This document shows positions 4,647 to 29,127 of a stretch of DNA of 33,760 bases, in pieces. Under the pieces are notes generated by a model. That model was not told the DNA's origin and did not search any database. It saw only the letters and a list, made by a program, of their open reading frames with translations. The position numbers were made by a program, and so were the translations under genes. Every line of letters starts with the position of its first letter. Positions within the stretch are counted from its first letter, which is position 1. Source of the stretch: Saccoglossus kowalevskii (Eukaryota; Hemichordata; Enteropneusta; Harrimaniidae). Location of the stretch: assembly GCF_000003605.2 (NCBI RefSeq), contig NW_003135847.1, positions 23,208 through 56,967 of the forward strand, written 5' to 3'.

Positions 4647-7600
4647 ATGAATACTCTCTACTTTGTTTTGTGTGTGGTATTTGTCGCGGATCTCAGTATC
4701 GTGAGTATTAGCATTAACATAAACAAATACTATCGCTTTCACTAATCTACTTTGGTAACATTTGATGCATTATAGTATGTAAGTGATAAAACTGAAATCT
4801 AAAATTATATCGTATTCACTGTGTTTATCTTTCTTTTTTTATTCAAATAGTTTTCTACCGCACAAGGTAAGACATTTTCTGAATTGATGTTATCTGTCTG
4901 ATAACTTGTTATAGTTATCATGGTAAGATCAAAAGTTAAATATATAATACTGTTCCCGTGCGCGCTGAATTTGTCACTCCGCTCACAGGATCGTTATATT
5001 AATCTGCAGCAAACATTTTTGAATGATGTCACGATTTAATTCTAAAAAAAAAACAAGCGCAAAAATGACATACTTGCTTAATTTTAATTAGATTATATGT
5101 TTTGCTGTGGGATGCAATAGCAAAATTGAATAATTAGTTGCTCGGCCGCACCATTTATTTCCAGCCTTGGTTGCAGCTGTAGACACCGACTATGTTAATA
5201 TTGTTTCTAGTCTCAGGTTGCAAATTCTTCAAATTAGTATATATCTTATAAAATAAGTGATTAATATAATGTAGACAATTATGAGTTGCAGCAATGATCA
5301 TTTAATTATACGTGTTTATGTTCAATAGTGTCGTTTCTGGTTTCAAGTAAAGAACATTCAACATTTAATTTTTCTATAATCGTGTTTTCTGTAATATGCT
5401 GAATGATGCGAATTGTCGAAGAAAAAAAATGGTAATTGTGAGATTTGTCCTTTATGTCATTTTAATCATGCCAACGCTACGATAAAGTCTTTCGACATTG
5501 TAAAATTATTTCGTTTTTGGGAGAAAAAAACCCTAAAAAAATAGATTTTGACAAGGTAATTCAGAAATGTATATTAGGAATAAATCATAAAAAATGATTT
5601 TTGTATGCACCCATAAATATTTTTCATAATAACCGATTTCACACAAATATTACAGAAAAAAGATAATTTGATATATTCTCTATATTTATTCCTTTATTTG
5701 ATTTAAATTATGATTGAAAGACGCTAAGTGTAATTACAAAATTTGTAGTGTGTTAAATCAACCAATGTATGAACAGTAACCTCAATAACCGTGATTTTAC
5801 GTGGTAAAAATGTTGTATTTTTTGGCATAAAAACTAAAGAATTTCACAATGTCGAAATCGGAAAATCTGTATCGCAGTGATGTGCTTTACAAAAACAACT
5901 ATCTCGGAGTACGGTACTTTTGTGATTGTTTGCCGCAGATTATTTGTTCACATGTTTGTGCATTCCGTGCGAAATTTATAACAAGCAGAATGGTAGGCAT
6001 TTTGTTTTCACTGCTTCTTTGTCTGGCTCTTACATACTGTCTGCAATAAAATAATGAAACGTACAAAAATATATATTATGCATGACATAATTCATTTATT
6101 GTATATTCTATTATATACAGTGTGTAGCATAGATTGTCATACAAGGGTAGGACAAGTATCTGATACAGATATTAATTCAGTATCTGAAATTGAATGCGAG
6201 GAAGGTGAACTCATGACAGGTTGCAGCAGTTACTCACAGATGAGCAGTGAGCGATCTGGTGACCACATGAAACCAATCGGCGATGGTAAAAGATCCTGTG
6301 TTGCAATGAATGGTAGAAATGGTACAGGTATGTTACTTCGTACGTCATTGTATGTTGTTATTATTTTTTGCTCCTACACTACGCTTTTAGACGAAACAGG
6401 TATTTTTTTTACTAAAAGTAATAATAAGATCGTTGTAGTGCTTTTATCAATTGACACGGATTTATGTTGAAATTGTTATGTTCTGTACCATAAACTTGTG
6501 TATACCCCACAGTTATTCTAGCGCAATAAATTGATAAGTCAATTCTTTTTAGATGTTTTTTTTTATATGTTTAATTTCATAGTTGGCGCGCATGCAAGTA
6601 CACAGTCTCTGTTTATACATACTTATATCACCTCCACTTTAACAATCCCGTTTTATGTTTCAATTGCATATGCAATTAAGTATCGTATGTTGATTTGTTT
6701 TGAATAATTGAATTAGTAGAGTTTTAAAGTGATGTCACCTGAATTCGTATATTTAATTTGTGTCGCTGCTTTCATTAATGTAATTGGTGACATATCAGGA
6801 GAAAACATGATTTGTTTCTATATTGCGGTATTAAGGAACACGTGCCTATGCTAGATGTTGCAAGTGGCCTGGCATGGAATGTGAATATTTCCAAGGTAAC
6901 AGGTCTTCGTCCCCAGATGATGGCGGAAGCATAGCATTTTGTCCAGACAAAATCAATTGCTTGGATACCTACGCAACAGGTATGTTTATTTTTCAGCACA
7001 ATTGAAATTAATATAATTGTATATTTATGGTATTAGTATTATTTTTCTAGTGATTACATATGTGGTTGAATACCTAAGAACATACACATGCAAAGAAGTT
7101 GTGTGAGAACAAAGAAGCTACCATTGCTTATATTACAGGTATCTATATATAATAAAATATAGAACCTGTTAATGTTCAATAAATTAAGCTTTTGCATATA
7201 ATATTTAAGCAAATTAATAATTCTTTAAATAGTAATTCCAAATCACATAAATATAACTGAATGTTGCATCGTATTTATAAATATATTGTATATTTTTTTA
7301 TAAAAAGGGGAATTGAAGCATTATATATTCATACTTTCTTTGCAGTGACTGTACCATCTTCTTTTTAATTAGTATAGACTTATCTTATTTTACCAGGTTG
7401 TTCGGTCAGATCACCTTGGAAAGGTCTAACAGGGACAAAGCCTATAATGCCAGATCGTTGTATTGGTTATAATGAACTTGTGAATAAAGGTAAGATTTGA
7501 TGAAATATTATTCATTATATTCTAGCACGATTTATTTATTTATTAGTAGTAATTGTATTCACTTTTTATTTCAAAAAGATAAGCCTAAATTCATCTGCAC

Positions 7601-8291
7601 ATTTTTTGTTCAGTAAAGTAAATTCCAGTTTAATTAAACATACACCTTTCTTATAAACACCCTTTTGTAGTAATATAAGCACATTTAACCAATATATGAT
7701 TAGACAAATGTTTTAAATATACAACACATGCGTTTCTTCTAGGTCTCTGGGTTACCACTGCATGTTGTTCCGCTCCAAATTTAATTTGTAAAACTAAATC
7801 TGGCAAGTCTGGTTCTGTAGCTGGTGATGAAGCAATTATATGGTGTGATGATGGATGGATAATAACCGGTTGCTCTGTCCGCAACCCGAATCGTCCTACA
7901 CATGGAGCCTACATTGATGGTGCGTCGTATGGTATTTAATTATACAATACATATTTGTCTGCGCGGGTGGGTGGCCAAGCACATGAGTAATCATTATGCG
8001 ATACTCTCGTCATGAGAGCTGAGCATAACAGAAACGCTGTATATTAGTATTGATAGATATATTTATTTAATTGTACTTCATGCGCATATGGTCTCGAACC
8101 ATCAGTACTTGATGTACACTTACATCACTTGGTATCTTGCATCCACTCTACATAACTAATTAGTTGGTTAGCACTGCTTCTTTAACAAACTAATTGTTTG
8201 ATTTTCAGATAATGACAATTGTGTGGCCGTTAGTGGAGCAGATGACAAACCAGTTTGGGCAGTAGCTGTATGTTGTAAAGACACGTTTTAG
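4647..8291 (+). CDS. Gene A: secreted PCSK9 CHRD-like three-module cysteine-rich protein, seven exons
   Basis: Exons are 4647-4700, 4851-4866, 6121-6327, 6836-6979, 7397-7489, 7743-7919 and 8209-8291, totalling 774 nt for 257 residues. All introns are GT-AG; donor 1 is GTGAGT, intron 1 is phase 0, and intron 2 onward are phase 1. Residues 1-23 form a signal peptide (starts MNTLYFV, ends FSTAQ, cleavage likely near A22/Q23). Three modules follow, with cysteines 29/49/58/83/100/101, 108/128/142/162/179/180 and 187/206/215/235/252/253. Each ends in CC. Modules 1 and 3 carry 'C-x8-C' cores ending MTGCSS and ITGCS; module 2 has ATGCS. This spacing and the TGCS...CC pattern match modules M1-M3 of the PCSK9 C-terminal Cys/His-rich domain. 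In that family each module has C1-C6, C2-C5 and C3-C4 disulfides. No subtilisin catalytic domain or prodomain is present. Extra cysteines are C25 and C134. N-glycosylation sequons are N90 (NGT) and N114 (NRS). It is the most diverged of the three paralogs. The binding role is inferred only. Confidence 0.82.
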
Positions 8292-8326
8292 AAAGCTTAT
8301 TACAATAAGGAAACATGGTGATGGGC

Positions 8327-8332
8327 ATTAAA
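8327..8332 (+). terminator. Poly(A) signal candidate of gene A
   Basis: ATTAAA begins 36 nt after the gene A stop codon. It matches the position and type of the gene B signal (ATTAAA, 23 nt after the stop) and of gene C (AATAAA, 23 nt after the stop). Confidence 0.45.
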
Positions 8333-8629
8333 ATGTAATATCGTCTACTTGATAGATTTAGTTATTTTGTTATGTTTTGTTTTGTTATAGATTTAGTTAT
8401 GTAAGTATTTTAAGTATATGTATATTATGAACCAGGAAAACATAGCATTATGTGTTGTGGTGATCACATTACAAGAGCTGATACCAGTACATATTTTATT
8501 TAATGTATTATTTTTAGATTTTAAAATGGCATAAAACGGGAACATCTTCAATATTATCGCAATTGTGTGACACCTAATCTTATTTTACAAACCTACACAC
8601 GAGAAAAATGTTAATCTACGCCAGATTAC

Positions 8630-8842
8630 TTCAATATCAACCATCTCATGTCACAATTTAGGCCTGAAGTTTGCACAGTTGTGTCCTGTATTATTGACAT
8701 CTGACTAATCTAATCAGGTTATAGAGAAAATATGAGTTTACAAATGGGAAGCATTTGTGTCAAGTTTAAAGGCAATAACCATTTACTCATTGTAGTTTTA
8801 TTGCAGAAATACACATTCATTTCTTTGAACTTCAGCTAAAAA
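8630..8842 (+). repeat. Dispersed repeat R1, copy 1
   Basis: This stretch aligns over about 210 nt with 23036-23270. Shared landmarks include 'ttcaatatcaaccatct', 'cctgtattattgac', 'tgtgtcaagtttaaaggcaa' and 'tttctttgaactt'. The two copies differ by small indels and scattered substitutions, as expected for old interspersed elements. No open frame or terminal inverted repeat was recognised. Confidence 0.6.
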
Positions 8843-8929
8843 TATAACTAGGTGTTGTGAGTTGCACAGCAAACACGAGTGTAAAGTTTGAAAATGGTAC
8901 TTATTTTACCGCTTGTAGATCACTCACAA

Positions 8930-10850
8930 ACACATAATTGAGATTACCCTGACACAAACATACAGTCTGATTTTTTACTATTGGCCCCCAAAAAATATGC
9001 TCTTTCGATATGCAGTAGACAAAGCATATGCTCTGACGAGGCATAATAATATATATTATCATCAAGGATGGAACAAGACGCACTAACAGAAGCGTTGCAG
9101 TGATCTACAGTCATACAGTCGCACCATGCGCCTCACTATTATATGAGGTATTGTCGAGGCTAGTGTTGAGCAATTCAAGTCCCGCCTCTCGACAAATTCC
9201 ATGCATCTCATTGTCAAATAACGGCTGTGTTTATATATTTGCCGTGCAACTTTCCTCTATTATGGCATTATTTTAATTTGATTGTTAGTATTATTAGTTT
9301 GGAATAAACACACAGGATAAAATACTTGTTACAAAGCGCAATTTCCACTCCCAGCAATCTCGGATAATCAAGTGTTTCTAAATGCGTTATACAATGACTT
9401 TCTCAATTCCATAGCTGCGTCATCAAAGAAGTATATTGGTGGTATCTACAGCTGTCACACCAAACCAAGAAATACAAAACGGATAGCAATGAAACTTGGT
9501 ACTTAGTTGCTCTGAAATAATGTCCACAACTAACCACACCATAATAATGACCCGATCTGCATAATAATTATCTATTTTCAACTGTTCAGATGATATTTCC
9601 ATAGACACTCAACAGTTTTCAATAAAACTTGGTGTATAGTTGGTCCGATACAATTGTCAATGTATACTCTGAGATAATGTTCTTACCCTAAGGTTCTACC
9701 TAATTTGCAATAATTATTTTGCAGACAAGCATATTGCAAGTTAATGGTATAATTTCTAGAATGTATCCGAGGAATATACGTTTCAGATTATGGTAAACTG
9801 ATGTACATATTATTCACATTGATTTTATTACAGTAGTTATTTGATTTGTCCACGTATCTCCCTATTGTATACTGTCATTTCCCAAACAACATCACTTCTG
9901 GTCTAGCCAAGTGCTGATCGTTCTAGTAAAGACTAGTACTGATTTGTAAATAACACTAATTGGTCATTGCCAACTAACTGTGCATTTTATCATAAACACA
10001 AGGGCAACTGTAACCAACATAAATAACATAAATGTCGATGATTGGTGGCGACGAGGATACTGCAACTGTAAATGCAACTGATTCGCCAGTGTTGATAGTA
10101 TAGAATATCCGACATTAATCATTCCAAAAAACTATATTATAAGAAAAACACAATGTTCTAACAATTTTGCACTTTTGATCACAGTTTTGGTGATCAAAAT
10201 AAATATTGTATATTGTGTTGTTATTTGACAGACTTCTTACAGACACACAAACTTGCACAACTTGGTTCATTTTTAGTCAACGAGTCATTGCATGACAAAA
10301 TCAAAGAACCGAAAGCTAATTACTCTGTTGGCAGTGAAAGCAAAATTTTCGTGTGAGTGTGGGGGGGGGGTTGTCAAAAACAAGAAAAAAAAATTACACT
10401 GTAGCTAAATTATGTGCAATTCAGATGAAATTGGGAAAATCTTTTGGCAGTTACCAGAAATAACATTCAACGGCGATTCACAATAAGTGATTTCATACTA
10501 AATCACAAATAATAACTGTAAACTTTGACAATTACCTACCGTCTTTTATTGAGTGATCAGAAACTTAGAATCTTAATTAGTCATAATTTTACAAGTTTAG
10601 ACAAAAATATTCCTTATTTTTTTACAATGGATTGAAAGATAAGTTTGCTGTTAGATTTTCAGATACACTGAATATTTAAAAATATATTTCATTCGCAAAA
10701 TCTAGTAAAAAGTATTGTAAAATCTAACTACTGTGCGCACAATGAACTAGATGGAATCTTTATTAAATCTCATCGAAATAATGTCGGTTGTTAAATATAT
10801 CTGTCCATGTTGTATAACGCACAGCAAACATAATGCGTAAGTCATACTGT
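8930..10850 (+). repeat. 3' flank of gene A, homologous to the distal 3' flank of gene C
   Basis: Segments at about 8945-9470 and 10715-10850 align with 30560-30600 and 31826-32520. Shared strings include 'gagcaattcaagt', 'tattagtttgga' and 'tatattggtggtatct'. In A the homology is interrupted between about 9448 and 10710 by about 1.25 kb that gene C lacks. In C there is instead about 1.2 kb of extra sequence between 30600 and 31826. No genes are visible. Open frames in one copy are broken in the other. Confidence 0.6.
10173..10199. repeat. Perfect 10-bp inverted repeat (hairpin)
   Basis: TTTTGATCAC at 10173-10182 is complementary to GTGATCAAAA at 10190-10199 across a 7-nt loop. It lies inside the gene A flank segment that is absent from the gene C flank. 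It could be part of an inserted element or chance. Confidence 0.4.
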
Positions 10851-11236
10851 GTTAGGATAAATATTGTTTACATTGCGAATAGATATTACAATTAATTGCT
10901 TATGCTTCAGTACGGCGTTTACAAAATTATTAAGCGATTATAAAAAGTTTAAAGTATAGATAAACTGAACGATGAGGGCGTGAACAAAGACGAGGCGTGT
11001 GAATGATAGGTCACTGGATAGGTAACTGACTTGCTCTAAAATGGCGTTCTGTTAAAAGTTAGAAGGCCACCATGGTGTGTTATATGGAATTCTCCTAGAA
11101 TTGTGTTTTGCAAAGTAGTTCGAGAACCTACGAATAGTAGAATTCGTAAATATTTTTTGTTAAAAAATAAAGGCTGAATTATTGAGCAGTTGACTGAAGC
11201 TAATAATAGAACAAAAATGATAAGTTTCACTATTGA

Positions 11237-11730
11237 TTACGTCAGTATACATTAGCGGACCGAACTACGAGCATCAGTTGGAATAATATTGCGTCATAAC
11301 GGTTTGAATCACGTCACGGCAAGTGAACAACATTTACATCATACAAATACCGGCGCCCTCAATGTGTGGGAATTGTATATCATAGGTTTCAATCTATAGA
11401 CGACTTTCCCGGAAGTAGCGAGACTGGGTGCAAAACTATTCCTGCTTTGTTATGGCGGGAAATACAGACATGTCAGATTGCTGATAGTCGATAGAAGGGA
11501 ATTTGATTTTTGGCACGTAGATTGGTACAGCCAGAAGCACAATATCACGGCGTCCAAGTTTGCGTTACACCCCGAAACGGCGTGCGCGCGCATGTGAAAC
11601 GCCGTATCTTCGACTCCCGGGAAATTCGTCTATACCAAGTTCCCTCTCGTGTTTCTTTGAACAATATGTTATTAAGGGAGTATCTGTTGAATATTAACGC
11701 TCTCCAGTACTATACGCGATAGATACACCA
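11237..11730. promoter_or_regulatory. CpG-rich promoter-like patch
   Basis: This patch is much richer in CpG than the AT-rich surroundings. It holds clustered transcription-factor-like sites: TTACGTCA (11237-11244), GCGTCAT near 11291 and ACGTCAC near 11311 (CRE/ATF-like), CCGGAAGT at 11409-11416 (ETS-like) and GGCGGGAAA at 11454-11462 (E2F-like). Such clusters are typical of broadly active promoters. No exon could be attached on either strand. A 70-codon frame at 11510-11722 starts with TTG, so it has no ATG start. Function and direction are unresolved. Confidence 0.35.
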
Positions 11731-13780
11731 TATTACGGATAAAGATTTGACTCAATAACATATTTTATATTATCTAATGTTGTAATATACATGCTGGAGT
11801 AGGTTCATTTCATGTTGTAATAATTATATTGAAAAAGAAGTGTGTATTCTAGCAACTTGTAAGTACTCATGACTGCCGGGCCGAGCCCGAGTATTTTTTT
11901 TCTCTACACAATCTGATTTCGTGTATAGATCTCCTATGTGACCACGAAACGGTCCGTGAAAATGTGTTGATGCGGTTGCATCCATGTTTGATCATATCTT
12001 ATGTGCTATTGTTTAGTTCCCAGGTCATGGGCCGCAGGAATCTAGGTGCCTATTGTACATCAACATCGTGAAAAGCCTCTATATCAACTGTCCAGCCAGA
12101 TTCTCAATACAGTTTTATTGAGACATTAATAGAACCATTGTATGTGAATGAGCGTACGTTTTTAAATATAGCTATAACGTTATTGTCTATACAAAAATGT
12201 TGCTACGTGAATGATAGCGTGCTTGTAACGGCATCGTTCATGTACTGTTACAGCAGTGCTTTGTTCTCCAACATTTGGAGAATGTTTTTTTATTAAATAT
12301 TTTTTTCTAATTCATTTTCCTAGATAATTTTTGCGTTTAGAAGGTGGCATAAACCGCAAAAATATCAGTGCGTAACGTTAGTTAGTTGTCTTTCTCTGAT
12401 GGTTGCCTGGCAACTGGTTGCTTTGAAAACATTAGGTACTGATTAACAGCACCATGTAATTGAATCAACTAATTAAGTTTCCTGCATGATAGTAGTGGAA
12501 TTCTCGTTTACAAATTGTAGCCTCCATTGTCCTGTAATTAAAGGCATATGGCCAATGATGAAAACTGCAATAGATAAAACTGTATTAGAGTGTTACTTTT
12601 GAATGTGTGACATTTAACTGATAAACTAGTTGAGACTTTGACACTGATTGGTTTGATTTATATTTCAATGAGTTGACAACAAATATTGGCAAGTTCTTTT
12701 AGAACTGCTGAGAAAGTTAATCGATGCGTGCCTATCCACGAATCGACATAGGAACAGACGTGAAAGAATCCGACAGATGTGCATTGCTTCTTTTCTGGGT
12801 GATCCATTTTAAAACAATACGTGACAACTATAAAAGATATTATTAAACTGAGTCATTGTGATATCACGTGTTAACAAAGTGAGGATCAGCTGATAAGTAA
12901 ATGCAGCCGAATAAAACAAAAGAAGTATGCAAGAATTCCAATGAATCACCGGCTGATGTGTTCATCAAGATTAGCGAAAATGTAAACTGAATGAATCTAC
13001 ATAAACAGTAATTGTTAATTTTAAACAAATGCTGGCAGCATAACCTTATAATTACTGGTGCACAAAACATGAATTATAATTAAAGACAGTCACATCCATG
13101 CAGAGTTCAAGTCACATACGGAGAATGTACAGAATAATTATCACGAATAGTATACAGTAACCATATTAATACATGTACGTGGTGATCAACATTGCAAAAT
13201 TAAGCCTAGTAGCAGAACTGTGTTGGATGGTTCAGATGTAAATATCTGTACTGAACAAACACACAGTTAAAATTGTTGAAATATTCAATATTTTATAGAC
13301 GATATTGGTACTTTGCACATGCAACGCCTACGGCAATAACATTGCATGGCTTGGAATGCCCGTATTGCTGCTTGCAGCTTTATTCATTCTGCGTGACTGT
13401 TGTTGCCGTCTCTGTGTTATTAACGTCATCAGTGGCGTCCACGAGTTACGAACGTGGTACACATTTCACCTGCACCGGCGTCAGTGACGGCATTGCAAAA
13501 TTGATAATGAATTATTAACCAATGCAGTAACATTATCCCATTGTCAAATTATCAAAGCCAACACAAAAAAATATGATATTTATTAGGTCGAAACATGGCT
13601 GCTTTTACTTAACGAACACAATTTAATATATCACCATCGTGCCATGACCTTTGACATATACTTATTTATAGTTTTGCGTACATACTCTATTATATTGCAG
13701 TCCATATATTTTTATTTTCACACGTACGTTATGTGTTTTTTTAATGCTGTTCTAATTTCTATACCATATAATATTTAATT
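11731..13780. other. Intergenic region with no supported gene
   Basis: Mostly AT-rich. A short hairpin (TTCTCCAA, 3-nt loop, TTGGAGAA) lies at 12264-12282. A small higher-GC island at about 13292-13520 is open in two frames but has no convincing exon structure. Nothing else is recognised. Confidence 0.45.
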
Positions 13781-13893: not shown

Positions 13894-13897
13894 CCAC

Positions 13898-14140
13898 CTC
13901 TTTCTTCACCTCATCTTTCTCTTCGTTTCCATGTGCATTCCTCTCCCACACCTCTTTTTTTCTTCAGCGGCCCAATCCTTGCCCATGTCGTTTCCCTCCC
14001 CTTCTCCTCTTTCGTTCTGTTTTCATTCCAAATATTATCTCTACTCGCTACCCTCCTTCCAATGTCCGCTCAATTCAACCCATCTACCCGCTCGTTTCTT
14101 CCTTACCTCTTCTCTTTTTCCCTCCCCCTTACAGTCATTT
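13898..14140 (+). repeat. Pyrimidine-rich tract
   Basis: About 240 nt of strongly C/T-biased sequence. It is open in all three forward frames because of its composition, not because it codes. It leads into a pentanucleotide microsatellite. Confidence 0.6.
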
Positions 14141-14190
14141 ACATTACATTACATTACATTACATTACATTACATTACATTACATTACATT
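14141..14190 (+). repeat. (ACATT)10 microsatellite
   Basis: Ten perfect tandem copies of ACATT. The tract and the pyrimidine-rich segment before it are bracketed by near-identical 18-mers at 13880-13897 and 14191-14208 (15 of 18 positions match). Confidence 0.95.
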
Positions 14191-15645: not shown

Positions 15646-18600
15646 ATGAATACTCTCTACTTCGTTATCTGTGCGGTGCTAGTTGCTAATCTCAGCACGG
15701 TAAGTTATCACATTGAGAAGAAAAAAAACTATCACGAGCGTAATTTTCATTTGAGTTGATTTCATTTCCAGTCATTCTTTAATTTAATAGTTGTTTTGGT
15801 GGTAGAAATATTAGTCAACTAACACATTACAGTCAGTCTGTTGACAATATGTGCAATGCGGAGCGTAACTAATTTAACCAAACTATAATGAACGCATTAT
15901 ACTCCGTAACTGATGCAAATGAGATCTGAATTCAATATACCGTATTCACCATGTTTGTATTTCTTTTTTCAAATAGTTTTCTACCGCACAAGGTAAGTAC
16001 ATTTTAGTACTAGGTTGCCATCTTAAGCGTTGCATATTGTTTCTTTGCAATCATAAGAAATCATAGTGAGTTGATATTTCTCCGTGTGATTTATCAAAGC
16101 CAATTTATCTGCTTTACTATAAGCAGCTGCAGGTGTCACCGTTTCTGACTCCTACCTAGAAAATCTAACGCAATTTGGCGGCATATTCTATTTGCTCCCA
16201 GATAGAAGTAAAACATTGTAATTCACTAATTTGTTAATGTTGGCTTCTGGTTAATTCGTCAAACACATAACTATAACAATAATGAATTCCAACAATTATG
16301 CGATGATTATGCGATGTAATTGTGTGCAGCATGGAATTAAGTATATCAGACAGAACCTACAAATGAGAAGGACATAGCTACATACGATGTTTGAAAATAA
16401 ATAATAGTAAAAATCATTTTTAGTGATGTACAACCTAGGACGTATTACACGATTACATTGTTACATTGTTAATACATTTCAGTCAGCAAATCAGTCAATA
16501 CATAATTGAACGACATGTACAATCATGCAAAAATAATTGTCTGTGAAACAAGTTAGATATTTATTTGTGTCATTATAGTATGTGATAGAGTGTGTGTTAC
16601 AAGAACTGGATTAAAGTCTGGTACGGATAAGGATTCTATATCCGAAGCTACGTGTGAGGTAGGCAAATTTCTAACAGGATGCTCTAGCTACTCAGAAGAC
16701 AGTAGTGAGCGAGCTGGCGAACAAATTAAACGAGCTAGCAATGGTAGAGTGGGCTGTATTGCCACAAATGGCGAAAATGGATCAGGTATGCACAAGAATG
16801 CTGTTGTATGGTTTGTTTTATACATAAATGCAAAGTGCTTAAGGTAGAGATGCAGGTTGGGAGACTACATTTTTAATTGGCTATAGTTACTGTAATTACA
16901 CGAGTAAAATATAATTTGTACCCATCAAGTTATATATAATTTGCAAGAGTTTTATTTAAACTTTCGAGTTTTATGGTTTACAATAACGTACTATGATACC
17001 ATATTAAGTGGTGTGAATTTTGGGTTAAAATCATGCATTTTAGGTGAAAATGCCCTTTTGAATGCATACCCTGATTTTGATTTAAAAACACTTATTTAAA
17101 ACTTCTGGTTACTAAGAACATAATGATGCTCTTCGAAAGATTCAAATGTTATGAATAACAGAGCCTCTAATTGGCAGCTCTACTGTTTCTGTTCCAGTAA
17201 AGACAGTGAAACCATACAAAGCCATTTACTTAGAATAAACCTGAATAATCACCCCTGAAAATTTCATTGAAAACAAATGAACCGTCTAAAAGTTAATTAG
17301 TTCTAAAGTTGAAATTTTGAGTAAAAAATGAAACGGAGATAATCGCCATTTTGTAAAAAAAATTGATAGAACGAATCATTGGCTTTATATGTGTAAAAGA
17401 AACTCATTGAAATACGCCTTACACCGGGTACTTTTTTTATTTTTAATTAACCGAGCATTTTACGTATGTGTATTTTGACACTGAAAAGTTAGTTATCGAT
17501 TACAGCAACAGCAGTTGTGTTTGTCAATTGCATCACAATTCTATCAGTACGGTGATCGCCCTATCGGGGCTTCCTCCTACATGAAAATAAATGAAAAATC
17601 AATTATTTATAGGTGAAAAAGTTCACTTATCATTTACAAATGTATGTTGTGTTTCATTACGCTTGCATGCTGGAAGCGTCTACGTTTTGTATGTTTTTTT
17701 TTGTAGTTTGCTAGTTGATCGCGCTTGAGGTAAGTAAACAGAGAGCCAGGACAGGAAGTCGCACACCGCTGCTCCGTAACTGAGGCCAGCAATCATTTGC
17801 ATATAACATAAACAATGACTTGTCAATCAAAGAGCAACGCAAACAAACTTTCGGGATTTTTAATCACATAAGCCTGCATCGGTTCCCTATATTTTAAAAT
17901 TTTTGAGTATGTTCCAACATTGACAATGCTCCGAAAATTTAACACTATCTAGCCAAGACTGTCTGGGTAAGAAAAAGCAAACAAAAACTGCATCTCTACC
18001 TTAAATTCCCTTTATTGAGTTAATATAAATAAATGTTCTGTATTATAATACAATATAATAATGTTGAATATTATTTTGCACTTTCTAAAATTATTTCTTT
18101 GATAAGTTCAGAATTAGTGTCAATTATCACTGCTATATTTGCCTACTGCTTTATTCTAGATTCAAAAACTAAAACTGTTAACTATTCAATATACACTACA
18201 GATGACATGTTGCGGTGAATTCATGCTTCACTTTTATTTATTTTAATCACCTACTTTGATGTTCTATTTTTTCATTGCTCTGACCACGTTTTGATAGCTT
18301 AATTTATTATTCTATATGTGTACTATTTTTATTTACACCATGGTTACTGTACTTATCTATTCGATGAAACTGTTCGGAATAAATTGTATAGTTATCTTCC
18401 TTGCTTTCATTAACATGGTTTTAATGTTGTTTTTGTTTTTTACGTAATTTTGGAAAGTATGTACTTTAGTCCACTCAATATAAAATAATGACTTGCATAC
18501 CAAAGGTTGTTTTTTTCATTCAAAATTTTCATGTCAAAGTGTCAGAATATACTTTGTTTTCCTGTAACATTATAGAGATTATATGTAATAAATGTATATT

Positions 18601-20295
18601 TTGTTTGCGGTATATGTTAAATATTACGATATTTGTATTCAAGGTACACGTGCCTATGCTCGTTGCTGCAAATGGCCTCATATGAGATGTAATTATGTCA
18701 ACGGCAACAAATCCTCAACCCCTGACGATGACGGGAGTATGGCATTTTGTCCAGACAAAATAAATTGTTTTGATGCCTTTGTTACAGGTTTGTGCATTAT
18801 TTTGTGTTTTAAGAAGTTATCAAATAAATCAATTCGTATTAAAGGCAAATGCTGTATAAGTACAGCGACTAGTAATCTTTACATGATGAAAATACAACTA
18901 CAATTATTATAATTAATGCATTTTATTAATGTTTATTTTAATATTGGGCGATAAACACACTATTATTGTGTTAAATGCGAGTATTCTAATCAAATGACTG
19001 GTTGATTTTGAACATTACATAATTTTTTGTAAAATTTGTAATAAACGAATAGATTTTTAAATAAGATAAATGAGTAAAATTTAACAGATTAAATAAAACG
19101 CACAAAAAAATGAAATCCCTCAGTACTGAAATCGATTAATCATTTCATTTCCGATCATTGTGTTCTTCATTATTTTATTGTTGGCCACACAGTTAATACA
19201 GTGTTCTCTTATTCCAAATAGGTTGTTCACTCAGGTCCCCGTGGAAAGGTCTAACCGGAGCAAAGCCTATGATGCCTAACTACTGTCTTGGTTATAATGA
19301 AAATGTGGATAGAGGTAAAGTTGTTCTGGTTTATTTAAAAGAAAACGTGTTTGCAGGAGTCAAATATACTTTCTGGGGGCTCTTTTAGTTTTATATTTCA
19401 TTTCCACGTAATTGATGTCGATATCATGTGATTCATTCAAAAATAGCACATTTTGTGTTTGATAATATTTATTGTGCAGACCATTTTCAAAACCTTTCCT
19501 TTTTCTTTTTCATATTGATATTGATAATAGCAAGGATATTTGTTTCCATATATGAGCGACGGTTTGAGTCACGTATGCAAGACATTTATTATTGTCATTA
19601 CCCTGCCGTGCATTCGGTAAAACTTGAGTCCAACGTTGCTCAAATCAAAACCTGTTTGTTTGGACGTTCATCGTATTGTAAAATTCCCAACATTTTGTTA
19701 TTGGCAGACGACTAACGTCCATTAGAATGAGTATGTGTCGTGCAATATAGTCTTTGTAATACATATGCATACATCATACGTGTTTTGTTTGTAGGTCTCT
19801 GGGTTAGTTCTGCGTGTTGTTCCGCTTCCAACTTCAACTGTAATACGAAATCTGTTCAGACTGGAACGGTTGAGGGTGATAAAGCAGTAGTAGGATGTGA
19901 CGATGGTTGGATACTAACCGGTTGTTCTGTGCGAAACCCAAACCATCCTACACGTGGAGCCTACATTGATGGTGCGTCGCACGTGATTTCATTATTTTAT
20001 TATGTGGGTGGGTTTTTGTGGTGATGATGGGATCGTCTTTCATTTCATCAACTGTATATTATGTAATCATTTAACTATCAGATTTAATTGATGATTGTCA
20101 CCAAATTATACTGCCTACATGTAGCATAATAACAATACAGTTCATATTTAATGTATGTATGTTTTTGTTTGTTGGTTGACTGATTGATTTGTTTGTTTTG
20201 TTTTTGTTTCAGAGGATGACAACTGTGTGGCCGTTAATGGAGCAGACGGCAAAGCAATATGGGCCATTGCTGTATGTTGTAAAGACACGTATTAG
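15646..20295 (+). CDS. Gene B: secreted PCSK9 CHRD-like three-module cysteine-rich protein, seven exons
   Basis: Exons are 15646-15699, 15977-15992, 16579-16785, 18644-18787, 19222-19314, 19795-19971 and 20213-20295, giving 774 nt and 257 residues with exactly the exon lengths of gene A. Donors are GTAAGT, GTAAGT, GTATGC, GTTTGT, GTAAAG and GTGCGT. The signal peptide (residues 1-23) has the sequence STAQ at its cleavage region. All 20 cysteines sit at the gene A positions (25, 29, 49, 58, 83, 100, 101, 108, 128, 134, 142, 162, 179, 180, 187, 206, 215, 235, 252, 253). Sequons are N90 (NGS) and N114 (NKS). The protein ends in AVCCKDTY. Intron 3 is long (1858 nt) because of a TTAA-flanked insertion. 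It is closest to gene C; for example, the exon 4 products differ at 6 of 48 residues. The CHRD assignment rests on the three-module cysteine pattern. No protease domain is present. Confidence 0.82.
16843..18000. mobile_element. TTAA-flanked non-autonomous DNA transposon (MITE-like) in gene B intron 3
   Basis: A 1158-bp element bounded by perfect 13-bp terminal inverted repeats, GGTAGAGATGCAG (16843-16855) and CTGCATCTCTACC (17988-18000). A TTAA target-site duplication lies on each side (16839-16842 and 18001-18004). The orthologous gene C intron has a single TTAA at 27169-27172 and no insert, i.e. the empty site. No transposase frame is visible. TTAA duplication is typical of piggyBac elements, but the ends start with GG rather than the usual CC. 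Another TTAA-targeting superfamily such as Sola3 is possible. Confidence 0.8.
19545..19590 (+). repeat. Decayed tRNA-derived SINE-like remnant, gene B intron 5
   Basis: Contains GGTTTGAGTCA (19561-19571), one change from the B-box-like GGTTCGAGTCA of the matching place in gene C intron 5 (28537-28547). It is embedded in shared flanks such as 'tatttgtttcc'. The insertion would predate the B/C duplication. Confidence 0.35.
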
Positions 20296-20507: not shown

Positions 20508-20694
20508 NNNNNNNNNNNNNNNNNNNNNNNNNNNNNNNNNNNNNNNNNNNNNNNNNNNNNNNNNNNNNNNNNNNNNNNNNNNNNNNNNNNNNNNNNNNNN
20601 NNNNNNNNNNNNNNNNNNNNNNNNNNNNNNNNNNNNNNNNNNNNNNNNNNNNNNNNNNNNNNNNNNNNNNNNNNNNNNNNNNNNNNNNNNNNNN
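20508..20694. other. Assembly gap (187 N)
   Basis: Unresolved bases directly next to a long TAAA microsatellite. The tract probably continues into the gap, so the true length here is unknown. Confidence 0.98.
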
Positions 20695-20793
<99 letters not shown>

Positions 20794-20796
20794 ATA
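20695..20796 (+). repeat. (TAAA)n microsatellite, about 102 nt
   Basis: A near-perfect TAAA array beside the gap. The matching place 3' of gene C has only a short AATA run (about 29360-29379), so the array expanded after the duplication. Confidence 0.95.
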
Positions 20797-20814
20797 TCAG
20801 GTGATAAGACTAGA

Positions 20815-21290
20815 ATCTTAAAACAATGACGGCGTTTATTCAATACTAATTTAATACACAATAATTTACACAAGGCAACATAGAGCAATGAATCAACGAT
20901 GTAAATAATGGTGATGACTGTCTTTAAATAGCACAACGTGTGAAGTACAAAATGCGATATGAAATTCAGCCTTGATTTTCTGTTTCAATTCAATTGCGAT
21001 TTGCAGTGTACACCCAAACCATATAAATTCTACACATCTTTCCACAATTCCAACGTACCATGGGTTGCAACAGTTTGTTAAATAGTTATTGCAATTAATT
21101 AAGAAAAATGCAATACACAATCCAAAAACACCTTATGTGTCAGTCGTTCTGCAGAAAAAAGGCATTGAGTGCAATTTGTGGTTAAAATTAGTTATTATTG
21201 ATTCAGGTCAACAATGTGAAATTTTTCATGTAGCTGTTACAGATTCAAGCTATTAAATGTTACTGCCCTACATTGCCCATGTACATGATT
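20815..21290 (+). repeat. Proximal 3' flank of gene B, homologous to the gene C flank
   Basis: Aligns with about 29400-29850. Shared strings include 'gaatcttaaaacaatga', 'aatcaacgatgtaa', 'attgcgatttgcagtgtaca' and 'ccctacattgccca'. The minus strand holds an open frame in both copies (20893-21120 and 29477-29677) with similar products, for example FHIAFCTS in both. Confidence 0.7.
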
Positions 21291-21392
21291 AATAATGCAG
21301 ATGAAACACCGTGACGTGACAGTGAGGACATGTAATATTTACCAGTTAGAGTACACTTTTACCGTTTTGATATTTTATTGCACTGTTCTGCT

Positions 21393-22140
21393 TATTTGTT
21401 CTAAAATGCTATCGTCTTGTGACGTGTTCTGTCACACCTGCCATATTCTAGAACACCTTCATTACAATCGGGTTGGACCATTTTCACATGTATTTGTTAA
21501 AATTATTGTGTTTAAGGCTTTAATTTTTTTATATAGAATATCAGTCCTGGAACACAAGAAAAATGCCCTTCAATGCAGCACTGAATATATTAACAGTGGC
21601 ACTTTGGTACACTATATACATAATAAACAAACAATATAGGCGCCTAAATCAAATTCCAAAATTATTTATTAAACATGAAATTTACCAATACATCCACATA
21701 TGTAACGGCTCACACACCGACGTTCTTGAAATACTGTTAATGTCTTACATTTCGTCGGACACGACGTGATACCATTTGACCATACAAAAGCAAATATAGA
21801 TCAGAAATCAATTTGCATATTCAAACCCATGAACAATGAAACCACAATTGTTTGCACAAAACGCTTCAGATCAATACCCACACCCACATTACTGTCCCAT
21901 CGAAAATATCACACTGAACATCAACTTGAAAAGGCTTTTAAAAACAATTCACAGGATTATTTTATTGCTGCATAAAAATACGCCAGACAGCTGTCAATAG
22001 ACTTCATTTGAATACATCTAGATCAGGCCAATCAGTAACCATGACTTTTGTAATAGCGTCCTCTGAAAAGAAGTAGAAATGAAGAAACTTATCTCACCTA
22101 TCGAGGGCCTCAATCGCAAGACCATATTTATAAGAAAAAG
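21393..22140 (+). repeat. Distal 3' flank of gene B, shared with gene C and with 23.6 kb
   Basis: The block with 'cttgtgacgt' near 21418 recurs near 23633 and 30315. The block 'cagacagctgtcaatagact' near 21985 recurs near 30409. Together they show the duplicated unit reaches at least 1.4-1.8 kb past the stop codons. No gene is supported. The forward open frames here are not preserved in the other copies. Confidence 0.6.
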
Positions 22141-22161
22141 TGTTGATATAAATTGGTTGAT

Positions 22162-22763
22162 ATGGCCATTTTAACATTGTCCAGAAGAGATGGCTTAACG
22201 GGGAAACCAGGAAAACAACATAATGCTTCCGGATGCAAGTGCTCCACAAAATTTACTTTACAGATTTGTTATATCATTTTTCATTCTCTAGATACATTTC
22301 ATGTAGTACTTTTACTTCCATGTTCAGCTTCCCACAGTCAGCGATTTTAATCAATGAACAATCATTTGAGTTTTGAAATCTCGCCTTATTAATTTAATTC
22401 TGATCTTAACACTTAACATTAAAAGCACTGGATTTACAGTAGTTTCCAAAAAATGTGATACACATATTTCGATCCTAAAAAAATATGTACAAACTAATTA
22501 AATTCTATTTGGTGTCATACAACTCACAAAGCCGTTTTACTCGTTCGAGAGAAACTCATTCTGTGATAGGAGAGGAGCATCTTAAACAGTGATTGAATAG
22601 ACGCATGTGTTTTGTATCACTGAAAGAAAGATATGTATTTTTTATCTAATTGCATTCTAGATGTATATTTAAAATCTTGTCTAAAAGATTTTTTTACAAA
22701 TACATCAATATCACCCACTTCTTGAGCATCCTATACTTCTGTCATGTTACATAAAAATAACAG
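22162..22763 (+). repeat. Duplicated flank segment, copy 1
   Basis: Aligns with 23681-24370. Shared strings include 'accaggaaaacaaca', 'gttttactcgttc', 'gaggagcatct' and 'acaaatacatcaatat'. The two copies are separated by the R1/R2 repeat. Confidence 0.6.
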
Positions 22764-23035
22764 ACGTTGAGCTGGTATAGATAAACTCTCTCGCATTCCT
22801 TGAAGAAAATAGTTTTTTGAAACTCTGTCATGTACCAAACAGAACGCACTTTGTTTGCAATCTGACATTGTGGTGTTTTCAAAGGTACAACACAAAAAAC
22901 GGCTTTATGTATGTAACTATAAAACATTAATTGTATTATGCATAGCAGCACAAAACACTCTATGTATGCTGATATTCTATATACTGTCTGGTCATTCGGA
23001 CGATCCTTAATTAGTTCAGTGAATGAATGAGCTCA

Positions 23036-23387
23036 TTCAATATCAACCATCTGATGTCAAATTTAGGTCTCAAGTTTGCAAAGTTATGGCTTTAAGCGTG
23101 GTGCCCTGTATTATTGACCTTTGACTAATTTAATCAGGCCCCAGAGAACATATTAGTGTACTATAGCCAGATATGAAGCATGTGTGTCAAGTTTAAAGGC
23201 AATAGCCATTTATTCATTGTAGTTTCATTGCAGAAATACACATACGTTTCTTTGAACTTTAGCTAAAAATCTTGTATTTATTATGCAAAAAAAATATTTG
23301 AAACTTATTGATTATGTGGGAGCTAATTGCTTCAATTCGGCTTAATCAAGTAATATGCCCGTCTGTCTGCCTGTATATCTCTGTGAT
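23036..23387 (+). repeat. Dispersed repeat R1+R2, most complete copy
   Basis: Bases 23036-23270 match R1 at 8630-8842, and 23273-23387 match R2 at 13781-13893. The adjacency suggests a single element of at least 350 bp, of which the other two are fragments. Confidence 0.6.
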
Positions 23388-23604
23388 AACGCATGCACAT
23401 GAAGTTCATGAGTGTTTATTTGCATATAACTTTAGCACGTAACAAAGATTACAATAAGGGAAAGAGTGGTATAAACAAAGATCAGTGATTACTTGAAATC
23501 GATACCAGGAAGGGGGTAAAAGAAAAGTTATATAACATTTTATTATTTAATAATTTATTAAAATACATAAGTTTGTCCAACTCCCTGTGGTAACACATAA
23601 TAAT

Positions 23605-24370
23605 TGTTTCTAAAATGTTATTTTCTTGTGACGTTGTATACTATCTCGCCAATCATTTCGTGGAAAATCGGCAATGTGATGTGGCCAATTTAACAAGAGG
23701 TACGTAAAGCCTGAAGGGGGGAACCAGGAAAACAACACGAGGCATTCGAATAAAAGAACAAATTCTACAAATCCAATGATGAAATAGACGGGTCAAATCT
23801 CATCTCATCGATTGTGATCTGATTGTTATTACCAAATATAATACAAAAACGAAGATCAATGGAGATACAGTAGGTTCGTATAACATAATAAAAGAATAAA
23901 AAAACGACTAGACGCTGAATAAGATGACTTGTTTAATCACAAAACATATATAAATTTGGTATTTGTGGGTGGAGTGAAGACAAAAATATGGTATATATAT
24001 GGTTCTAAAAACGTACATCTAATAAAAAGTGTGTATTTCTATTTGGTGTTTGTCACATAACCAACAAGGTCGTTTTACTCGTTCCGAAGAACTTGTTCTG
24101 TTTTAACAGTGAGAGAGAGGAGCATCTTTAACGCACCACTGCTTGCATACGTATGTATTTTCACTACAAATAAATATCTAGCTAAATTATTTTCTTGTAC
24201 TCTCAATAGTATCGATTTTGCTTCTGCTACATATATATGATTGCATACCACATGTAGATATTCTTTTTTCAATATTGCCAGAAATTTCGTTTTTTTATTT
24301 TTTAACAAATACATCAATATTATCCACTTCTTGAACATAATACTTCTGTCATGCTACACAGAAATAGCAG
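23605..24370 (+). repeat. Duplicated flank segment, copy 2 (no gene attached)
   Basis: Starts with sequence matching 21393-21430 and 30290-30330 (gene B and C 3' flanks) and continues with the match to 22162-22763. No CHRD gene lies 5' of this copy. It may be local duplication or the remnant of a lost array unit. Confidence 0.5.
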
Positions 24371-25069
24371 AATTTGGTTGTTCTAGACCTTTGTGCAATG
24401 TATCATTGTTGCTGATTTGTCTTGCATTATTATATATATTTATATCATTTATAAATGCATTTAGCAATCCTCAATGTTACATTTTACTGGGGGACAACTG
24501 AACAAGAATAATAAATCCTTCTTTGTTGGAAGAAATATGAGCTTTTCCTCAAGCAGGCGTGTATGTCTCTCTGTGAGCTAATGTTCATAGCTATTGTGAA
24601 TAAGATTGAAGAACGGAGGTACTAGCTTAGTTTGACTGTTTAATAGGTAAAATGACACACATCACACGACCAGAAGTTCTAGATTTATCTGCTGTTTATG
24701 GTGTCTTGGCTGTGGTCCACATGGTTCAATGTGATGGCAAGAATCTATATGAGTTTAACTAAAATTCACATCACGTCTTGTGGTTTGTGATAAAAGCACA
24801 GAAAGCTCTCTCATTTGTCATTCCAGTGTTCATCTGAATGGTGATGAAAAACGTACATGTTTGCTCTCGAGGTAGAACACGCGATCTATAATATTGAAGG
24901 AAGCTGCTTTTCAGGGTGAAAAAACAGACTTTGTTTTTCTCACTATACTATTTACATATTTCGTTACGTAATTTAGTGGAGCTATTCATAAAAATGGTTT
25001 CATAAATTCATAAAATTGCATGAATTCTGCGCCCCAATTCTAAGTAAATGAGAAACATTGACATGTTTA
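24371..25069. other. Intergenic, nothing recognised
   Basis: No exon, RNA gene or repeat match within the window was found here. Confidence 0.4.
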
Positions 25070-25742
25070 TGTTGAATACCAATGAGTAGATTTATTAAAC
25101 ACAACTAAAAATGTACCAAAAATATTGCGCACGCCTGCGAATATTGATTATGTTCATTTTTGAAACCATCAATGCATATATGAATGATAAATATATTTGT
25201 AACATGTTCGCTGATTGTCGGATGATTCATGTCCGTGACATGGACATCTGCTACGCATGTGCACTGCAAATTTAAAGTTGGATGGATTGAAGAGTTAAAT
25301 GTGTAAACACGACTTTAAAACAAAACTGCACCTGATCCATAAAAACAACTTGAATTATTAAGATTACGAAAATATCTTCACGAAATAAATTATTAACCCT
25401 CCAAACAATTACATCAAACTGCATACGAGATTAGTTGTATTATATAGCATGGAGACACCGGGCAATGTTACCATGGTTTCATCTGCCATGGGTAAATGAG
25501 ATTGTGGTTAAACAATGTATGGAAATAAATCAATGTAACTGTATGTCTGATATTAATGTCATTGCGTGTGTGTTTATCAGTTGGTTAAATTTGGGGGTAC
25601 CAAGCGTAGTAATACCAAATCCATTATAATGAAAAACGTTAATAACATCAGGGCTATTTTTGTCAATACATTTGGGTCTTTTTAACAACAGTATATACAG
25701 CCACGCGACTGAATGAGAGTATTTGCTTCTGAATCAGACGAC
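25070..25742 (+). repeat. Upstream region of gene C, homologous to that of gene B
   Basis: Partner of 14955-15645. It carries the same ordered blocks, with small indels, leading to the TATA element and start codon. Confidence 0.7.
25692..25697 (+). promoter_or_regulatory. TATA box of gene C
   Basis: TATATA ends 46 nt before the gene C ATG, identical spacing to gene B. Confidence 0.5.
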
Positions 25743-28700
25743 ATGAATACTCTCTACTTCGTTATCTATATGTGGGTAGTCGCTGATCTCAGTACGGTAA
25801 GTTATCACATTGAAATCACGAGCACGAACACATCCTAACGCTTTTCGTTTGAGTTAATTTCATTATTAGTCATTCGTCAATTTAATAGTTGTTTTGGTCG
25901 TAGAAATATTAGTCAACTAACACATTACAGTCATGCTGTTGACAATATGTGCAATGTCGTAACCAACTTCAATAAACTACCATGAACACATTGAGAACGC
26001 ACTGTAGTCTGTAACTGATACAACTGACATCTTGAATCACCATATTGTATTCACATTTTTTTTTATTTCGTCTCTCAAATAGTTTTCTACCGCAAAAGGT
26101 AAGCAGATCATTGAATTTATAGTTTAAGTATATGTAATATAATTTGGTATAATTATGAAAGTAAGATCAATAATTAAATAATTCATATATATCGCACGCT
26201 TCAAATATATGCAGTGACAACGTAGAGTAAATCTCTAGGACTAAACACTAATGCGTTCAGCAAGGACGCTGTTAAGTCTATGTTGCCCGTAGTTACTAAA
26301 CTCGATTTCAGATCATGCACATGCTATTACTATTCTGTCTGGGAACCAGTATGACAGGTTGCTTTCGTATGAGAGTGTTCATTTTAAGCGCATGATGTTC
26401 CTTTAACTATAAAGAGTAATTACAGTGTATTAACATATTTATGTGCGTGTTACCAATTTTAGTTGATCTATATGGTCATTATCATCAAATGCAAATGTTT
26501 TATGTAAACCTACTTTTCTGACTTATGGCTCGAAATTTTGGCGGCATGAATATGAACATGAATATGAATAGCTTTCAGCCGACTACTGGTTACTAATTGA
26601 AACATATATATGGCTCAATATAAAAGTAATGAATTTCATCAATTATGTAATAATTAGTAATCGTGTGTGGCGCTATATTAAGAATATCGGACAGAACATA
26701 CAAATGAGAAAGAAACAGCTTCTACATACGATGTTTGAAAATAATTGTAAATGTCATTTTAGTGATGTACAAACTAGGGCGTATTACATGGAAACATTGT
26801 CGGATACATTTTAGCCAGCAAACCAGTCAATACGTATTCGAACGACATGTACAATCATTCAAAATAATTGTATATAAATAATGTAGGTGTTTATTTATCA
26901 TTATATAGTATGTGATAGAGTGTGTGTTACAAGAACTGGATTAATGTCTGGCACGGATAAGGATTCGACATCCGAAGTTATGTGTGAAAAAGGAAAGTTT
27001 CTAACAGGATGTACTAGCTACTCAGAAAACAGTAGTGAACGCGGTGGCGAATATATTAAACCAGTCGGCTTTGGTAAAAAAGCATGTACTGCCGTAAATG
27101 GTGAAAATGGGTCAGGTATTTTTATGATCGCCATTGTATGTTTTGTTTGGTACATAAATGCAAAGAGCTTAAATGTATACATGCGTACACGACTCGTTAT
27201 TGACTTTAAAATGTTAAGTGCAATAAAATATATTAATGTTGAATATTATTTTGTAAATTATCTTTTTCTTTGGAAAGTTCAGAATGAGTGTCATTTAGCG
27301 ACCATCTGTTTAATTTTCATGATTTTAGTGTATCATTCTCATTTTCGTTGTGGTTACTGTATTTACTATTCTATGAAACTATTCAGACTAAATTTTATAG
27401 TTTTCTTTTTTAATTTTTTGCTGTTTTGTTTCATTTTTTCCCCAAATAATTCCGGATTACTTTTCCCGGTTTGTATGTATTTCTACTCATGAAGGGTCTT
27501 GGATACCTGTTTTTATTTATTTTTTTCCTTCAAAATCCAATGCCAACGTGTCAAAATGTGCCTGTTTGTATTCCTGCAATATTATTGAGATTATTTGTAA
27601 TAATAATATTTTGGATATTTTTTTTTTATTTTATATCGGCATATTCGTATTCAAGGTACACGTGCCTATGCTCGTTGTTGCAAGTGGCCTCATATGAGTT
27701 GTCAATATGTCAACGGCAACAGATCCTCAACCCCTGATGATGCCGGAAGTATGGCATTGTGTCCAGACAAGATAAATTGCTTTGATGCTTCTGTAACAGG
27801 TTTGTTTATTTTGTGTTGGATAATTCTGAGCATTTTATCATGTATTAATGTTTTTTTAATAATAAAGTAAGTTTTCAAATTGGTTAAATAAACCAAGTTT
27901 TAATATTTTAACAGGTTAAAATAATACAGGTCAAAACAGTCATTTAAATGCTAAGTGAAACTAAAATCGATTACTGAGTTCAATACCGACTATTGTGTAG
28001 TTCATCATTTTGTTGTTGGCCACACAGTTAATACAGTGTTCTCTTATTCCAAATAGGTTGTTCAGTCAGGTCCCCGTGGAATGGTCTAACCGGAACAAAG
28101 CCTATGATGCCTAACTATTGTCTTGGTCATAATGAACTTGTGAATAAAGGTGGGGTTATTTTTTGTCTATGAAATTTTTTTAGTTTCTTTAAAAATAAAG
28201 TCCCGCGAATACGTTACTTTTTTTTCTGGTGTTTTGCGTTGTTTTTCCCCCAGTTTTTGGTGGCGTGGATTTTTAATTTCATATAATTGATTTCGACGGA
28301 ATAAATGTCGATATCATATGATTCATTCAAATATAGCACATTTTGTAAAGATTAATTTCAAAACGAACCCTTCAAAAGCATGTAGTTCGTGTTTTTTTTT
28401 ATGTTATTTATGCAGTTAATCATGCATTTCTTTCTTCCCTACGTCTCAGTGATATAGATAACATAATCAACATACTTAGACAATGCAATGTAAGCTGGTA
28501 GTGCAGCGGGGCTATTTGTTTCCGTACGCGAACGTCGGTTCGAGTCACACGAAATACATTTCATATAGTCATTACCCAGCCACGTATTCGGTAAAACGTG
28601 AGAGCATTGTTGCTCAAATCGACATCTGTTTGTTTAGTCGTTCATTCCTCAATTATTTTATTGGCGGACGACGACGTCTTTGTATAAGATATACATACAA

Positions 28701-29127
28701 CATGTGTATTTTGTTTCTAGGTCTCTGGGTTAGCTCTGTGTGTTGTTCTGCTTCCAATTTCAAATGTAAAACCAAATCCGTTAATGCTGGAACTGTTGAG
28801 GGTGATAAAGCAATAGTAGGATGTGACGATGGTTGGATACTAACCGGTTGTTCTGTGCGAAACCCAAACCACCCTACACGTGGAGCCTATATCGATGGTG
28901 CGTCGCACGTGATTTCATTATTTTATTATGTGGGTGGGTTTTGGTGGTGATGATGCGATCGTCTTTCATTTCATCAACTGCATATTTAGTAATCATTGTG
29001 GATTCAGAGCATATTTAAGTTTATTTATTCGATTTTTATTTCAGATGATGATAATTGTGTGGCCGTTAATGGAGCAGATGGCAAAGCAATTTGGGCTATA
29101 GCCGTATGTTGTAAAGACACGTATTAG
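25743..29127 (+). CDS. Gene C: secreted PCSK9 CHRD-like three-module cysteine-rich protein, seven exons
   Basis: Exons are 25743-25796, 26083-26098, 26909-27115, 27656-27799, 28057-28149, 28721-28897 and 29045-29127, giving 774 nt and 257 residues in the same exon-length pattern as A and B. The signal peptide ends FSTAK. All 20 cysteines are conserved. Sequons are N64 (NSS, unique to C), N90 (NGS) and N114 (NRS). Module cores read LTGCTS, VTGCS and LTGCS, and the protein ends AVCCKDTY. The exon 5 donor is GTGGGG, weaker than GTAAGA in A and GTAAAG in B. Exon 5 could therefore splice less efficiently, although the frame continues correctly into exon 6. Exon 6 is nearly identical to that of gene B, as is the start of the following intron. 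Family assignment and functional caution are as for gene B. Confidence 0.82.
28485..28560 (+). repeat. tRNA-derived SINE-like head in gene C intron 5
   Basis: An A-box-like stretch 'agctggtagtgcagcgg' (about 28493-28509) is followed about 30 nt later by GGTTCGAGTCA (28537-28547), close to the Pol III B-box consensus. No full tRNA cloverleaf can be drawn. A decayed partner is at the same place in gene B intron 5. Confidence 0.45.

Follow-up and report, generated by a model that had tools for sequence, protein, structure and literature searches.

The three genes found head to tail on the plus strand of a 33,760-base stretch of DNA (hereafter the window) probably, if by a narrow balance of judgement, belong to an expanded family of free-standing, secreted binding proteins made only of the three-module tail of PCSK9. 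This reading is carried by sequence homology, intact gene models, a shared exon layout, the lack of a subtilisin match in cis, purifying selection and the presence of at least 12 loci.

The window, which comprises bases 23208-56967 of contig C2799 in a 572-Mb assembly of 4830 contigs, is animal-type DNA of 33% G+C with a single gap (20508-20694), and scans of it with Rfam and for tRNAs found nothing. The initial annotation had described three intact seven-exon genes, and these were recovered at the same coordinates (Table 1), with exon boundaries set by eye, GT..AG at 18/18 introns and no internal stop. All three share the same seven exon lengths (54, 16, 207, 144, 93, 177 and 83 bases) and the same intron phases (0,1,1,1,1,1). 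A signal peptide, likewise claimed earlier for each gene, was likewise predicted here on reading by eye: exon 1, which consists of 18 codons, ends in phase 0 and is alike in the window genes and in three genes on contig C3905, is hydrophobic, and the predicted signal peptide takes up the first ~22 residues, with only a few residues separating it from the first module (M1). The predicted mature chain would be ~25 kDa and hold 20 cysteines and two or three histidines, and each of the three proteins has sequons at residues 90 and 114. At the protein level, gene 2 is 83% and gene 1 is 68% identical to gene 3. At the DNA level, genes 1 and 2 match almost only in exons and at exon edges; between genes 2 and 3, introns and spacers still match, and these two are therefore the younger pair. 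The placement of M1 in genes 1 and 2 is the same as that given for gene 3.

Table 1. Positions of the three genes, their exons and the modules of gene 3 within the window.
Feature	Position in window	Strand	Description
Gene 1	4647-8291	+	257 aa; Pfam PCSK9_C1 5.7e-17, PCSK9_C3 3.8e-16
Gene 1 exons	4647-4700, 4851-4866, 6121-6327, 6836-6979, 7397-7489, 7743-7919, 8209-8291	+	Gene model
Gene 1 exon 1	4647-4700	+	Start codon and predicted hydrophobic signal peptide (read by eye)
Gene 2	15646-20295	+	257 aa; Pfam PCSK9_C1 4.4e-17, PCSK9_C3 2.2e-16
Gene 2 exons	15646-15699, 15977-15992, 16579-16785, 18644-18787, 19222-19314, 19795-19971, 20213-20295	+	Gene model
Gene 2 exon 1	15646-15699	+	Predicted signal peptide (read by eye)
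Gene 3	25743-29127	+	257 aa; Pfam PCSK9_C3 9.6e-19, PCSK9_C1 1.4e-15; match to human PCSK9 7anq
Gene 3 exons	25743-25796, 26083-26098, 26909-27115, 27656-27799, 28057-28149, 28721-28897, 29045-29127	+	Gene model
Gene 3 exon 1	25743-25796	+	Predicted signal peptide (read by eye)
Gene 3 module M1	26909-27690	+	Exon 3 and start of exon 4; residues ~24-104; PCSK9_C1 at 28-104
Gene 3 module M2	27691-28752	+	Rest of exon 4, exon 5 and start of exon 6; residues ~105-182; seven cysteines; no PCSK9_C2 match
Gene 3 module M3	28753-29127	+	Rest of exon 6 and exon 7; residues ~183-257; PCSK9_C3 at 182-255

Judged from sequence, the homology of the window proteins to the C-terminal domain of PCSK9 is secure. 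The Pfam profiles PCSK9_C1 (residues 28 or 29 to 104) and PCSK9_C3 (residues 181 or 182 to 255) score above their curated cut-offs in all three proteins, with E-values that span 1.4e-15 to 9.6e-19, and the PCSK9_C families are the only Pfam matches of these proteins. When compared to the PDB using phmmer, gene 3 matches human PCSK9 at E 1.9e-19 over residues 29-254, in an alignment that runs through the middle module (M2), and a distant paralogue reaches E 5.7e-21 with PCSK9 entries as its only matches; for both queries, PCSK9 chains are the only PDB matches under E 0.01. The other matches of gene 3 (E up to 10) are one protein at 0.8 and three ribonuclease 4 sequences at 0.012-0.015, and a ribonuclease 4 identity was rejected given these values and the single stretch of ~55 residues involved. 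PCSK9_C2 does not pass its cut-off (26.1 bits) in any of the three window proteins or in any of the 11 gene models described below, and the sub-threshold matches to this profile in 6/11 models (2/3 in the window) are located in M1, not in M2. M2 is assigned by its position, its cysteines and the phmmer alignment rather than by its Pfam model. The M1-M2-M3 order of the PCSK9 tail read by the initial annotation is thus upheld by the C1 and C3 profiles and by the whole-domain alignment, but not by the C2 profile, and the search against the PCSK9 C-terminal families that it had suggested left C2 unmatched. With two of three module profiles and an alignment over the whole domain, the proteins are assigned to the PCSK9 tail superfamily.

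The family itself is judged not to be PCSK9: a subtilisin-like catalytic domain was sought and not found. The assembly contains 33 Peptidase_S8 matches (E up to 0.001) spread over 17 contigs; the six contigs that carry the family are not among these, and neither a narrow nor a wide pattern for the subtilisin Ser/His catalytic motifs occurs in 219,654 bases of these contigs. This motif scan covered C2799 and C4008 whole and the other family contigs in part, and had no positive control; the profile search is the stronger test. No contig was found to hold both S8 and PCSK9-tail matches, and no protease-tail fusion gene was found in the assembly, as far as searching fragmented sequence one exon at a time can show, which does not amount to proof. 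Both tests agree with the earlier statement that the genes have no subtilisin part. As to the Inhibitor-I9 prodomain of the full convertase, the Pfam matches of the three window proteins are confined to PCSK9_C families, and the signal peptide and M1 are only a few residues apart. As exon-level searches of draft assemblies can overlook exons, the seven exons might be imagined as encoding the C-terminal half of complete PCSK9 proteins, with the protease exons having escaped detection. Beyond the lack of S8 matches and of even the wide motif, this is opposed by the signal-peptide exon upstream in 3/3 window genes and by a gene pair on contig C3373 that is transcribed away from each other with third exons 2.7 kb apart, and we consider it very improbable.

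The multicopy array of three genes reported initially was confirmed as such, but it is only a subset of a family with at least 12 gene loci on six contigs, 11 of them with complete models of exons 3-7. Three loci each are found on C2799 (the window) and C3905, two each on C3373 and C4008, and one each on C3647 and C258; one of the C4008 loci is truncated by the contig end, and C1644, where a weak further match (E 0.95) contains two stops, was left out of the 12. In the assembly as a whole, there are at least 17 matches to PCSK9_C3 and at least 13 to PCSK9_C1 (E up to 1). Exon 3-7 models were obtained for eight of the nine loci outside the window by requiring AG/GT ends and phase 1, and phase was therefore not free to vary; exon 4 has 144 bases in all eight, and both PCSK9_C1 and PCSK9_C3 score above cut-off in every one. 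Using a simple upstream scan, an exon closely like the signal-peptide exon of the window genes was identified in three of these eight models, all on C3905, a hydrophobic candidate exon only was identified for C258 and one C3373 gene, and no such exon was picked in three models. A tree of the 11 models, rooted at its midpoint and with C4008 as a long branch, sets C3647, C4008 and C3373 apart from C258, C3905 and the window genes. The C3905 gene closest to gene 2 encodes a protein 93% identical to that of gene 2; an allelic duplicate contig was rejected as the source of the copies, as the DNA blocks in which these two genes match share 76-91% identity and were judged too distant for alleles. Two peptide patterns each, applied to viral contigs and prokaryote genomes (collections not built for animals), gave no confirmed relatives.

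Genes of this family are under purifying selection, with M1 the fastest-changing module. The dN/dS ratio is 0.24-0.39 among the window genes (three methods) and 0.23-0.35 over the 15 pairs formed by six genes of equal length. In all 15 pairs, which are not independent of one another, dN is higher in M1 than in the third module (M3); the lowest dN is that of M3 in 14 pairs and that of M2 in the remaining one, and dN/dS of M3 is 0.06-0.28. The C3373 pair, which stands outside these 15 and to whose longer chains the module borders are ill-fitting, has dN values of 0.223 for M1, 0.053 for M2 (where the ratio is ~1 on few changes) and 0.152 for M3, and agrees with the other pairs on M1 as fastest but disagrees on M3 as slowest. 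The fast evolution of M1 could reflect relaxed constraint instead of recognition, the overall dN/dS being below 1. Chance resemblance and pseudogenes were both rejected on the basis of open frames, 18/18 splice sites and dN/dS well under 1.

The three six-cysteine modules of the initial annotation proved nearly right, but M2 of the window proteins contains a seventh cysteine and a further one precedes M1. In 9/11 models a cysteine precedes M1, and M2 of each of these nine contains seven or eight cysteines; M2 of the two models without it contains exactly six. This co-occurrence, drawn from about two independent lineages, suggests that a disulfide links the N-terminal tail with M2. For the second cysteine of M2, residues 128 and 134 are both possible. 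A protease, had there been one, would have joined the chain at this N-terminal tail with its extra cysteine. With respect to the eighteen module cysteines of the PCSK9 tail, which make three disulfides per module, the count is at least six in every module of 10 of the 11 models, the exception being the C4008 model, which has four in M1. In this model, M1 lacks its first cysteine together with the second one of its CC pair, which fits disulfide 457-527 of PCSK9. Cysteine totals are odd in the two C3373 models (21 each) and in C3647 (19), so that at least one cysteine there is left without a partner in its own chain and is likely to be free or bonded to another molecule.

For the fold, secretion, function and ligand of these proteins, we infer a course that builds on the above. 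The chain would enter the secretory pathway via its signal peptide and fold into a compact three-module pseudo-trimer with about nine disulfides, and in most copies a further disulfide would tie the N-terminal tail to M2. The protein may then be released into mucus, an epithelial secretion or body fluid. Because there is no protease, action is expected to occur by binding, with the protein serving non-enzymatically as a stoichiometric extracellular binder in which M1 would form a variable contact face, and the usually slowest module, M3, a conserved face for contact or structure. Duplication would in turn give rise to binders that differ in specificity. Such an extracellular binder set is consistent with a scaffold that is secreted, multicopy and presumably rigid and in which one module evolves fast and another slowly.

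A narrower form of the binder reading is that these are secreted host-defence or defensive-mucus proteins that bind microbes or act as a deterrent. In the nemertean Antarctonemertes valida, PCSK9-superfamily transcripts are up in the body wall, are present in mucus and are counted among 14 putative defensive toxins (PMC9132205); given these ribbon-worm mucus proteins, this kind of protein may already have been seen. A multicopy family with a fast M1 would also suit defence, but the nemertean section of that paper contains no activity test, and the two families matched in NCBIfam, choice_anch_L (best E 0.0089) and mannose-binding-lectin (best E 0.037), are weak, the match to the one for which a cut-off is shown being well below it. 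We regard a defensive role as possible but unlikely.

LDL-receptor action in the manner of PCSK9 cannot be exerted by this family, as the catalytic domain, through which vertebrate PCSK9 mainly binds this receptor according to PMC9816786, is missing. The same source describes contacts of the PCSK9 tail with CAP1 via Arg491, Arg657 and Arg659, among others. In the phmmer alignment, Arg491 of human PCSK9 aligns with Glu63 of gene 3, and Arg657 and Arg659 are opposite a gap; because the contact arginines are not kept, CAP1 binding of the PCSK9 kind is not predicted for gene 3. This loss weighs against two further explanations. In vertebrates, the tail engages additional partners and tunes the activity of PCSK9 (PMC9816786), and a free tail could by the same token be a regulator or decoy of an endogenous PCSK9-like protease or receptor, competing for the partner of the full-length tail. 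Such a role appears quite improbable to us, as the exon-by-exon search of the fragmented assembly also found no full-length PCSK9 to regulate. Alternatively, the proteins could constitute a resistin-like hormone, that is, a secreted cysteine-rich signal acting on a cell-surface receptor, an idea that draws on the structural resemblance of the PCSK9 tail to resistin and on the binding of CAP1 by both (PMC9816786). No resistin family appeared in Pfam searches (E up to 1 for the window proteins and up to 0.1 for the other models), a dozen diverging copies seem to us unusual for one hormone, and we hold this explanation to be unlikely.

The tail domain of PCSK9 is known, and it is its free-standing, secreted and expanded form that is new. 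Searches of open-access literature, some of them with loose queries, yielded no paper that we recognised as dealing with free-standing PCSK9-tail genes, and the Pfam names of the tail domain were absent from the literature searched. The job of the tail within PCSK9 is unsettled, with PMC9816786 implicating it in degradation of the LDL receptor through a partner termed ‘protein X’. PCSK9 is a major drug-target protein, and a tail that apparently stands alone with a secretion signal and is kept by selection makes it possible to ask directly how the tail functions on its own. Such a natural free-tail family also lets one ask which face binds partners and whether PCSK9 came from domain fusion. On the latter point, we tentatively raise the idea, which we doubt more than we believe, that, in invertebrates, the three-module tail makes up a separate family of extracellular recognition proteins and that PCSK9 arose by joining a subtilisin to such a module. 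In its favor, we count the presence of at least 12 free-standing loci with no detected fused gene in the assembly, and the phase 1 intron in M2 that splits a TG|C codon and presumably falls at the human exon 10/11 boundary, c.1681/1682. It appears that the PCSK9 tail can occur and diverge as a protein in its own right.

Resistin is a trimer of chains, while PCSK9-tail-type proteins carry three modules in one chain. The resistin family is similar to the family described here in consisting of small secreted cysteine-rich proteins, and structural resemblance is reported for the PCSK9 tail (PMC9816786), but it has no sequence match to the window proteins or the other models. The nemertean mucus proteins (PMC9132205), which were compared by description only, likewise are of the PCSK9 superfamily, are represented by several transcripts and come from an invertebrate; they differ in being listed as putative defensive toxins, in a section that makes no statement on presence or absence of the protease. 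In comparison to PCSK9 and its CHRD (Pfam PF18459, PF18464 and PF18463; PDB 7anq and 2p4e), the window genes are multicopy, have their own predicted signal peptide and lack a detected catalytic domain, and the family has extra cysteines before M1 and in M2 and does not reach the PCSK9_C2 model. The name CHRD-like, used in the initial annotation, is apt as regards homology to the PCSK9 C-terminal domain, but the family is not histidine-rich in the CHRD sense, with 2-7 histidines per chain (11 models, exons 3-7) against 13 in the aligned stretch of human PCSK9 (hand count). The two are nonetheless homologous over the whole domain and have in common a C1 module placed first and a C3 module placed last, nearly all module cysteines, and the CC pair that closes each module.

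Two members of the family of free-standing PCSK9-tail genes lie on contig C3373 (121136-130876; loci L032-L033), where they are divergently transcribed with their third exons 2.7 kb apart. Both carry additional cysteines in M2, the middle cysteine module, and have a total of 21; because of these extra residues and the odd total, the encoded proteins are possibly disulfide-linked dimers.

Subtilisin-domain matches were also observed elsewhere in the assembly. A full-length domain on contig C4171 (890336-891199, E 7.8e-54) lies within an unbroken 598-aa open frame and has no introns across the domain; this could be an unusual gene, or the contig could be foreign. Contig C4556 alone holds seven of the matches listed (97908-427351), all seven with internal stops, that is, introns or broken copies, and this is a separate protease gene cluster. 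A pattern search hit a regular array on contig C72 (132-28102) with a repeat unit of about 3.1 kb, whose repeats carry a cysteine-codon motif on alternating strands.

Repeats and retroelement motifs in the window
Feature	Position	Detail
Repeat copy	9014-10824	spacer between genes 1 and 2; DNA comparison
Repeat copy	31837-32520	ahead of gag piece; DNA comparison
(TTACA)10	14139-14190	perfect simple repeat
(TAAA)25	20695-20796	perfect simple repeat; directly adjoins assembly gap 20508-20694
Zinc knuckle CX2CX4HX4C	33609-33650	after Gag-like frame; motif scan
Zinc knuckle CX2CX4HX4C	33669-33710	after Gag-like frame; motif scan

The end of the window (33092-33760) is a fragment of an LTR-type retroelement that continues past the window edge. 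Its Gag-like reading frame, shifted somewhere around 33340-33410, is followed by two zinc knuckles; two pieces searched against Pfam matched no convincing family. The repeat shared by the gene 1-2 spacer and the flank of this fragment, at 69-88% identity between copies, is perhaps an old LTR copy. By string search, GGCGACGAGGAT occurs on the + strand of the window only at 10047 and 32978, and it resembles the region adjoining a primer site.
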